Positions 11,900-25,768 of a stretch of DNA of 41,397 nt are shown piece after piece. The translations under genes and the position numbers were made by a program. Origin of the DNA: a virus. Position 1 is the stretch's first letter; each line of letters begins with the position of its first letter. Under the pieces are notes generated by a model that was given only the letters and a program-made list of their open reading frames with translations, was not told the origin of the DNA and did no database searches. The stretch is from IMG/VR virus record IMGVR_UViG_3300030116_005516, positions 1-41,397 of that record; one strand, given 5' to 3'.

Positions 11900-11906
11900 A
11901 TTCTTT

Positions 11907-11935
11907 AATACTAGGGGCAAAATGCCCCTAGTATT
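11907..11935 (-). terminator. 13-bp perfect stem-loop after the capsid gene
   Basis: AATACTAGGGGCA (11907-11919) pairs perfectly with TGCCCCTAGTATT (11923-11935) around a three-base loop. It lies between the capsid stop and the 38-residue gene. There is no clear U-run on the transcript, so partial attenuation or protection of the capsid mRNA 3' end is more likely than full termination. Confidence 0.65.
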
Positions 11936-11947
11936 GGTTATTTGTTA

Positions 11948-13399
11948 TTAGACTAGCTTAAGAATAGCATGGGTTTGCTCATTACGAACTTCCATACCAA
12001 CTTCCATTAGCCACTCATCTGTTTCTCCGTCTCTACCATCTTTCACAATATCTTTGCGAAGTTGCATATCACGGCCAGCCAAAGGACGAACTGAAAAGTT
12101 TGCAGGGTCAATTGCAATTGCATAATCTTCATATGCGCCTTTTAGATACGGATGAGGAACAAAATCAAGTTGACCAACTGGCCCCATGTAGGAGCGAACT
12201 CTTAGTCCACCTTTTGTTTCTTCTCCAGTATCGTAAAAACCAGTATTTCCAGTTCTTACAGCACCAGCTAATTGAACTAGCCACTTATTTGATGCAAAAA
12301 CAGTTTTTGTCATACTTCCAGAAACCATATCTGAAAATACATACTCAACAACTCCATCAAGATTGCTAACTCCTTCGCTATAATCCCATTGAAGATTAGA
12401 ATTTCCGTCTGCATTTAGAGATTGAATTGCGCCTGCTGTTCCACCAACGCCTAATCCTTGAAAAGTCCTTTTAGGATTTTCAGCAGTAGCGTCAAGAGAA
12501 ATAGCTCCATTTGTAAGCATTGCCCATTCAATATCTCCTTTTATTTTTGCTAGCTTTCTAGCTTGTAAACGAGATAGTTCAGAACCGCCATAATGCTCTG
12601 ATACTTTTGCAGTACCTGTTATTGTATATGGTTCACGAAAAATTTGCGTACAATTTTTCAATCTGCGTACTTTCTTGCGAGTTTCTGAACCAACAGCAGA
12701 ACCTTCAGCAATTCCAGCGACACCATTTTCACGCATAAAGTAATCAGCGTCAGCAAAATTAGCTTCACCGAAACCATTGCTTCCACTATGATTTTGATAT
12801 CCGTAAAAATCTGTTGCCGTACCATTATCATAAAAACGACCAGCATTAGCAACATATGTTAATGTCATTACACCAGAGCTATTTGCGACAATTAAGTCTG
12901 TGCCATCTGCTTCATTTTCAGTATTATAAGCATCAAGACTTGCATGAGCATGCGCCCCTACAAATTGAACCATTAAATCTGTTGCTGAAGCGTGATTTAC
13001 GCCTTTACCAACAGCAATACAAATTAAATGAGTAATGTCACTATCGCTAAATGAACTTCCTGTATGAGTTGCGGAATATATACCGCCAACTTCAAACATT
13101 TCCATTTGTGCTTGTCTTTCGCAAATTAAAATTGCATTATCGCCGTTATCACCAGCAGATGCGGTGTCTGAAAGTTGAGCGGCAGTTGTTGTAAACTTCT
13201 CGCTCTTTTTAATCATATACTCGTCTTCCATCCATTCAAAGATAGGCACAGGGGTAACAACTGACTGTAACCCGAACAGAGAGAAGATAGGAGTAACATT
13301 TGGATTGTAGTAATGGATTTTATCGCCCAATTCAAGAACTTGTCTTTGAGACCCGTCCGAAAATTGCATGGCTGTACCAGTACCATAACTTGTAGGCAT
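11948..13399 (-). CDS. Major capsid protein (483 aa)
   Basis: The start at 13399 follows AGGAGG, the strongest ribosome site among the structural genes, as expected for the most abundant virion protein. It lies directly after an acidic scaffold-like gene in the order portal, scaffold, capsid. The amino region (NPNVTPIFSLFG, then PIFEWMEDEYMIKK) resembles HK97-fold capsid proteins of the SU10/DUF5309-like type. The carboxyl part has helices and a late beta segment (VRSYMGPVGQLDFVPHPYL) consistent with the P and A domains. The fold assignment is inferred; identity as capsid is well supported by position, length and the following stem-loop. Confidence 0.85.
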   Translation of the reverse strand: MPTSYGTGTAMQFSDGSQRQVLELGDKIHYYNPNVTPIFSLFGLQSVVTPVPIFEWMEDEYMIKKSEKFTTTAAQLSDTASAGDNGDNAILICERQAQMEMFEVGGIYSATHTGSSFSDSDITHLICIAVGKGVNHASATDLMVQFVGAHAHASLDAYNTENEADGTDLIVANSSGVMTLTYVANAGRFYDNGTATDFYGYQNHSGSNGFGEANFADADYFMRENGVAGIAEGSAVGSETRKKVRRLKNCTQIFREPYTITGTAKVSEHYGGSELSRLQARKLAKIKGDIEWAMLTNGAISLDATAENPKRTFQGLGVGGTAGAIQSLNADGNSNLQWDYSEGVSNLDGVVEYVFSDMVSGSMTKTVFASNKWLVQLAGAVRTGNTGFYDTGEETKGGLRVRSYMGPVGQLDFVPHPYLKGAYEDYAIAIDPANFSVRPLAGRDMQLRKDIVKDGRDGETDEWLMEVGMEVRNEQTHAILKLV

Positions 13400-20997: not shown

Positions 20998-21354
20998 ATG
21001 AAAGAATCACTATGCGTGTATAAAAATAACACACCCGCTAATGAAGAGCGCGTACCAAAGAACACCCAAGAACTAATCCAAGAAGAGTTCAACTTCGCAC
21101 CTACAGGCGAAGAGAACCTCGCGCTAGATGTCTTCGCCGAGGACTTCCAAGCTAGCCAAGAACGCGCTAAAATAGAGCAGGCGTGGATGAACGCGAAGGA
21201 CGGCAACCTAGCTATGCTAGACTCCGAAGGTGCTAACTGGGATAGTTCTACCCACATTCCCGAAGGGAATATTCAAATCCCAAAGGGATTTAGCTTCGAC
21301 GAATCAACCGAGTGCTACACAGACGGATGCACATGCTCACGAAATCACGCGTAG
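20998..21354 (+). CDS. Hypothetical protein in a GC-richer island (118 aa)
   Basis: The ATG at 20998 is chosen because AAGGAG lies nine bases upstream; a longer open frame from 20863 has no ribosome site. The protein is acidic and hydrophilic (KNTQELIQEEFNFAPTGEEN, then LALDVFAEDFQASQERAKIE). It has two related IPEG/IPKG motifs near the end and a Cys-containing tail (ECYTDGCTCSRNHA), which could bind a metal. G+C is clearly higher than in the surrounding genes, and the mRNA contains several perfect short hairpins. It is the first gene of the rightward block. Family not recognised. Confidence 0.65.
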   Translation: MKESLCVYKNNTPANEERVPKNTQELIQEEFNFAPTGEENLALDVFAEDFQASQERAKIEQAWMNAKDGNLAMLDSEGANWDSSTHIPEGNIQIPKGFSFDESTECYTDGCTCSRNHA

Positions 21355-21370
21355 AGCAGAATACACAGCC

Positions 21371-21424
21371 AAGCCTAGAGGGTTCTATCCGTAGGATAGC
21401 TAGGTTCGATTCCTAGCTAGGCTT
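21371..21424 (+). ncRNA. tRNA-like element: acceptor stem plus T-arm with a short hairpin
   Basis: AGCCTAG (21372-21378) pairs perfectly with CTAGGCT (21417-21423), extendable by A71-T124. Inside, CTAGG (21400-21404), the canonical T-loop TTCGATT (21405-21411) and CCTAG (21412-21416) form a T-arm stacked directly on the acceptor. Where a tRNA would have D and anticodon arms there are only 21 bases, containing CTATCC-GTA-GGATAG. No CCA is encoded. This is too short for a decoding tRNA. It could be a tRNA mimic processed by RNase P, or the remnant of an attachment site matching a host tRNA 3' end. Confidence 0.5.
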
Positions 21425-25741: not shown

Positions 25742-25768
25742 AAAGGGGGAGTATGTTGCTCCCCCTTT
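25742..25768 (+). terminator. 10-bp GC-rich stem-loop after the PC4-like gene
   Basis: AAAGGGGGAG (25742-25751) pairs perfectly with CTCCCCCTTT (25759-25768) around a 7-base loop. The 3' arm ends in three U, so it may terminate or attenuate transcription after the PC4-like gene. A weaker AGAGTT..AACTCT hairpin follows at 25800-25816. Confidence 0.7.

Follow-up and report, generated by a model that had tools for sequence, protein, structure and literature searches.

A conserved phage RNA, predicted to fold as a shrunken tRNA cloverleaf, lies in the 3' UTR of a single small gene

The window, by which we mean the whole 41,397-nt stretch analyzed here, is a 41.4-kb virus record whose terminase, portal, capsid and tail genes lie on the minus strand and in which a short rightward operon begins near 20.7 kb. 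On the plus strand, a small gene, hereafter the upstream gene, is followed by an ATACAC box and by a 54-nt element at 21371-21424 with a tRNA-like fold that comprises an acceptor, a T-arm and a middle hairpin (Table 1). An earlier note on this DNA had described a perfect acceptor helix of 7-8 bp, a perfect 5-bp T-stem with the loop TTCGATT and, in the 21 bases between them (21379-21399), a 6-bp CTATCC/GGATAG hairpin. All three were recovered, the acceptor with 8 perfect pairs. The same note held that there was no room for D or anticodon arms; both arms are in fact there in shrunken form, so the element is no bare minihelix. The mini D-stem amounts to a single A-U pair in the window and reaches up to 3 pairs in relatives, and the anticodon-like arm has no anticodon loop. 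Judged from its sequence, the element is thus a shrunken cloverleaf of acceptor, mini D-arm with GG, shortened anticodon-like arm and T-arm. CCA is not encoded 3' of the acceptor in the window, where the next letters are CTA.

Table 1. Positions of the upstream gene, the ATACAC box and the parts of the tRNA-like element in the window
Feature	Position	Strand	Remarks
Small upstream gene, 118 aa, ATG at 20998	20998-21354	+	Stop codon 16 nt before the element
ATACAC box	21361-21366	+	Invariant in 18/18 aligned relatives
Acceptor helix, 5' strand AAGCCTAG	21371-21378	+	Two-sided changes in 7/8 pairs among relatives
Linker AGGGTT, predicted mini D-arm with invariant GG	21379-21384	+	One A-U pair in the window
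Anticodon-like arm CTATCC-GTA-GGATAG	21385-21399	+	6 pairs, 3-nt loop
T-arm CTAGG-TTCGATT-CCTAG	21400-21416	+	tRNA T-loop consensus
Acceptor helix, 3' strand CTAGGCTT	21417-21424	+	8 perfect pairs with 21371-21378

Searching the window with a descriptor that combined the T-loop consensus, a 5-bp T-stem and an adjacent 7-bp acceptor returned one site, the element itself, compared with 0.01 matches per Markov-randomized window. Folding thermodynamics were weak for the flanked stretch (z -1.38) because its CTAG repeats permit a competing hairpin; the reality of the fold is settled by covariation in relatives, not by thermodynamics. A pattern scan for an acceptor and a T-arm with a free middle yielded eight contigs, and scans with the neighboring AAA+ (CobS-like) protein and the terminase yielded over 100 loci. 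By covariance model, 43 contigs including the window (each contig counted once) carry the element, so that the search for the same fold in related phages proposed by the earlier note located it at the same place. Members scored 44-83 bits with the family model, near-complete genomes contained one element each, and in every contig with both, the element and the terminase were on opposite strands. The fold is kept while identity of the CobS-like neighbor protein drops to 51%. In three bacterial control genomes with normal tRNA sets, the family model reached at most 24.6 bits.

We assessed covariation in a covariance-model alignment of 28 members (A4). Overall, 96.6% of its paired cells were paired, compared with 81.9% in shuffles, and 16 of the 20 pairs showed two-sided change, compared with 6.0 in shuffles; two-sided changes occupied 62 cells and 32 further pair types were seen, counts that overstate independence, the alignment being fitted to the structure and the sequences being related. 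None of 500 column shuffles reached any of five covariation measures, and sliding the partner by one column, as a control, lowered pairing to 45-64%. The T-stem was 100% paired with two-sided changes in 4 of its 5 pairs, and the anticodon-like arm had them in 5 of 7. Between lineages, helices are replaced wholesale. The acceptor occurs as AAGCCTAG/CTAGGCTT, AACCCTAG/CTAGGGTT, ACCACCA/TGGTGGT or CTCCCTAG/CTAGGGGG, the T-stem as CTAGG/CCTAG, GTAGG/CCTAC, AGGGG/CCCCT or AGCAG/CTGCT, and the middle stem as CTATCCC/GGGATAG or CTTTACC/GGTAAAG. The T-loop TTCGANT (UUCGANU in RNA) and the linker GG are invariant across members. Since compensatory changes exceed both the shuffle and the slid-partner controls, the element is a conserved structured RNA. 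The earlier note had named such changes in homologues beforehand as a test, and they strongly support its suggestion of tRNA mimicry.

The smaller parts of the fold were consistent as well. The mini D-stem has 1-3 pairs, with at least one pair in all 17 distinct linkers (such as GTC-TGG-GAC, GTT-TGGG-AAC, ACT-GGGG-AGT, CT-TGG-AG and AG-ACGG-CT), and a total of 33 D-stem pairs compares with 17.8 in re-dealt linkers, a count made with hand-set linker boundaries and including one row, L093, that is no secure member. The anticodon-like arm has a 6-8 bp stem with a small loop of 3-6 nt, and the 3' strand of the acceptor/T stack measures 13 nt rather than 12 in 27 of the 28 members. A canonical T-arm and acceptor are also what a decayed ordinary tRNA gene would leave behind. 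Decay is, however, extremely improbable here: all members across diverged viruses are without an anticodon loop, their stems are kept by compensation, and a full tRNA stands at this place in no relative.

The element lies where transcription diverges, upstream of the terminase genes, and the T-hairpin was detected as terminator-like. Both facts would suit a DNA-level hairpin, such as a cruciform, an origin or a packaging signal, or else a terminator of transcription. We nevertheless consider such a role very improbable, as the family model is strand-specific (about 77 versus 21 bits) and G-U pairs on the plus strand outnumber A-C mismatches 7 to 3, a strand bias that fits an RNA read from the plus strand. 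Moreover, the T-loop consensus is an RNA feature, and no conserved U-tract accompanies it.

At the margins of the family, several candidates were set aside. In L093, a distant relative, an acceptor and a T-arm joined by a 10-nt linker with no middle hairpin lie at the corresponding place (356-398). As a version of the element lacking the middle hairpin it was not counted, as its 24.7 bits equal what 3' parts of genuine bacterial tRNAs attain (24.6). L081 carries a T-loop-like hairpin at the equivalent position, which does not fit the family model, and the distant terminase relatives L086, L087, L090, L091, L105 and L187 gave no convincing element, even in unfiltered searches. Among 50,697 named phage records there were no close relatives of the window; short nucleotide matches in named phages were T-arm-like stretches of 20 nt, and one of these is annotated as a tRNA.

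Of 20 loci compared, 19 have a homologous upstream gene, which ends 16-47 nt before the element, whereas the genes that come first on the downstream side belong to nine clusters with no relation to one another. The upstream gene differs from its counterpart in L002 at 28, 22 and 56 first, second and third codon positions, the third-position excess of a coding sequence; it matched no PHROG or Pfam family and is probably an early gene. With a profile of this gene we recovered 33 distinct contig stretches that hold its 3' end, leaving out five more that end at a contig edge, and all 33 carry ATACAC and a T-arm after the stop codon. The element therefore belongs to the 3' UTR of one gene. This location fits the earlier note's proposal that the structure marks an mRNA processing site; the cutting itself is a prediction that we take up below. 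The ATACAC box starts at a variable distance, 4-25 nt, upstream of the acceptor stem, and is apparently single-stranded. As a repeated promoter it was rejected, since GAATACACA is no more frequent in the window than chance predicts and the distance to the fold varies; a search for a single-subunit RNA polymerase, run without a positive control, found none.

A fixed 3' UTR location, together with an invariant and apparently single-stranded box, would also suit a cis element that is never cut, its fold shielding the upstream message from 3' exonucleases or controlling the operon by way of a bound protein whose site includes ATACAC. We found nothing to account, on this view, for the keeping of a full tRNA shape, with T-loop, GG and acceptor, in place of some other hairpin, and we regard this explanation as improbable.

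Part of the element resembles a bacterial tRNA in letters as well as in shape. The earlier note had suggested a relic of an attP site matching the 3' end of a host tRNA gene, and comparison with bacterial tRNA 3' ends did return a match: 24 nt of the element (CTAGGTTCGATTCCTAGCTAGGCT) recur as the 3' terminus of tRNA-Arg(CCT) in genomes of Algoriphagus and further Bacteroidota. In addition, two relatives (L197 and L198) encode a tyrosine integrase. However, for about 8-10 unconstrained bases to match one tRNA among many genomes is near chance, the matching acceptor is one variant of several, and most relatives have a different one. Such attP sites lack a 5' acceptor strand; the element has one, and it covaries with its partner. 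No integrase was found in the window, in agreement with the earlier note, and the two integrase-bearing relatives have a separate, likely real attP about 160 bp from the integrase (L197 1219-1349, L198 1254-1384). These sites consist of tRNA-Arg ACG-like and tRNA-fMet CAT-like halves that span the tRNA from its anticodon loop (CTACGGA, CTCATAA) through its 3' end, and in both relatives the mini-cloverleaf lies 12-14 kb from integrase and attP. An attP site or relic is thus almost certainly not what the element represents.

Because these two relatives have an integrase and attP-like sites, part of the virus group is probably temperate, and their attP sequences could reveal the hosts. Separately, L122, L128, L131 and L136, from Algoriphagus and a Spirosoma-labelled MAG, hold extra tRNA-Arg(CCT) 3' ends without a full tRNA, which look like attachment-site duplications of unrelated integrated elements.

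We then compared the element with known RNAs. None of 4227 Rfam families matched it; the closest, mascRNA-menRNA (RF01684), scored 23.1 bits for the window, 24.8 for L013 and 37.3 for L067, against a cut-off of 42.5, and L029 gave no match to this model at E ≤ 1. Falling below 42.5 bits, the element is not a member of that family, though it is built alike: mini D-arm with GG, long anticodon-like stem, compact loop, T-arm and absence of linkers were all found. With mascRNA and menRNA, at the 3' ends of the MALAT1 and NEAT1/MENbeta lncRNAs, it shares an acceptor stem, a tiny D-arm with GG, a canonical T-arm and almost no single-stranded linkers, as well as an anticodon-like stem of at least 6 pairs with a compact loop, often UUU, and a place at the 3' end of a longer transcript. 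Its length is 54-64 nt across members, compared with 56 in the Rfam model. For human mascRNA, RNase P cuts the MALAT1 3' end, RNase Z trims and CCA is added; in the crystal structure, the T-loop is held by two guanines of the reduced D-arm, the anticodon stem is longer with a compact UUU-like loop, and eight linker residues are lost (PMC11693755). The likeness is most likely convergent. The known RNAs derive from vertebrate lncRNAs and have an acceptor/T stack of 12, whereas the phage element sits in a phage mRNA, where its processing is predicted, has a stack of 13, and is accompanied by an ATACAC box where MALAT1 carries a triple helix.

Plant mitochondrial t-elements, which sit behind reading frames, offer a second parallel. 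They are tRNA-like structures in transcripts and are cut by an RNase P activity (PMC4919922). The phage element shares with them a tRNA-like structure within mRNA transcripts; t-elements differ in being organellar and cut by a protein-only RNase P. Phage-encoded non-tRNA RNAs cut by bacterial RNase P are also on record, namely M3 RNA and the C4 RNA of P1/P7 (PMC11143913). The element is likewise a phage-encoded non-tRNA RNA, with its cutting only predicted. C4 is an antisense regulator, whereas in the fold of the element the T-loop and GG are the only sequence-conserved free segments, and the Rfam model of C4 antisense RNA gave no match even at E ≤ 10.

Resemblances to other tRNA-like molecules were partial. 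An acceptor stem and a T-arm with a TTCRANY loop are tRNA features, but there is no 7-nt anticodon loop on a 5-bp stem and no normal D-arm. Covariance searches with tRNA and tmRNA models, proposed in the earlier note, came back empty at the Rfam curated cut-offs; ARAGORN found no tRNA genes in the window or the scanned relatives, and for tmRNA neither Rfam nor ARAGORN gave a match there, nor was there a tag frame. tRNA-Sec shares the 13-long acceptor/T stack and is the second-best Rfam match of L067 (29.3 bits, cut-off 47), but the element is without an anticodon loop and a long D-arm. Similarly, the tRNA-like domain of tmRNA shares the acceptor, T-arm and reduced D region, but the element is without an mRNA-like part. 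The model of the streptococcal sRNA SpF41 (RF02435) also combines acceptor, hairpin and T-arm elements; its score of 15.9 bits against a cut-off of 52 is at chance level.

Given the mascRNA-like features and the place at the 3' end of a reading frame, we infer cutting by host tRNA-maturation enzymes. That the element is a phage counterpart of mascRNA or t-elements, which these enzymes cut at the 3' terminus of an early message, is an explanation to which we give about an even chance. The GG of the mini D-arm would dock into the T-loop in the manner of the tRNA elbow, host RNase P would cut on the 5' side of the acceptor, at its first nucleotide, and the 3' end would be trimmed by RNase Z or by exonucleases. 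Cleavage would give the upstream mRNA its 3' end, parting it from the downstream genes, and would release a stable tRNA-like RNA of about 55-60 nt, as happens with mascRNA at MALAT1 and with t-elements in the mitochondria of plants. Having no anticodon loop, the RNA is unlikely to be charged or to decode. Several observations count against this processing model. The acceptor is followed by U73-CUA or -CAA, while bacterial RNase P prefers RCCA, and RNase P processing does not account for the invariant ATACAC box. The 13-long acceptor/T stack may also shift or weaken cleavage.

The main rival to processing at the mRNA 3' end is a tRNA mimic that acts in trans by occupying a tRNA-handling host factor, the upstream gene merely supplying the transcript. 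Candidate targets would be a T-loop modification enzyme, the CCA-adding enzyme, RNase P, EF-Tu or a tRNA-targeting defense protein. T-loop, GG and fold are very strongly conserved while stem sequence is not, as expected for recognition by shape, and the single copy per genome and the absence of ARAGORN tRNA genes are also in keeping with a mimic. A decoy, however, would not have to be tied so strictly to where one gene ends, and the 13-long stack is unlike an EF-Tu ligand. We judge this rival unlikely, though a serious contender, and it may be combined with processing.

tRNA mimics made or cut by tRNA enzymes are already known; what appears new is a conserved family of this design in phages, and the open literature that was searched contained no description of a mascRNA-like phage RNA. 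Known tRNA mimics that make RNA ends through tRNA maturation come from mammalian lncRNAs and plant mitochondria. If the processing model is true, the same mini-cloverleaf design arose independently in bacterial viruses, and phages have one more way to process transcripts in addition to sites for RNase III and RNase E. A bolder proposal, which we hold to be doubtful, is a phage RNA class not described before: a mimic without an anticodon, convergent with vertebrate mascRNA, that host tRNA-processing enzymes would excise from an early mRNA and that, free and abundant, would act in trans on the host's tRNA machinery or on tRNA-targeting defense. In this family of uncultured bacterial viruses, evolution has preserved a tRNA look-alike, keeping the fold while the letters change, and the element offers a natural 55-nt substrate for defining the minimum needs of bacterial RNase P, RNase Z, CCA-adding and T-loop modification enzymes.

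Three further features of the window are worth recording. A strong hairpin (AAAGGGGGAGTATGTTGCTCCCCCTTT) lies at 25742-25768 between small rightward genes, and a long one (TTAATACTAGGGGCAAAATGCCCCTAGTATTGG), probably a terminator, at 11905-11937 between the capsid gene and the next gene. Similarity of the capsid protein itself (11948-13399) to podovirus capsids, for instance those of Cronobacter phage A24 and of Roseobacter phage CRP-810, is confined to the C-terminal half of those proteins (residues about 219-482) and leaves the N-terminal half unmatched.
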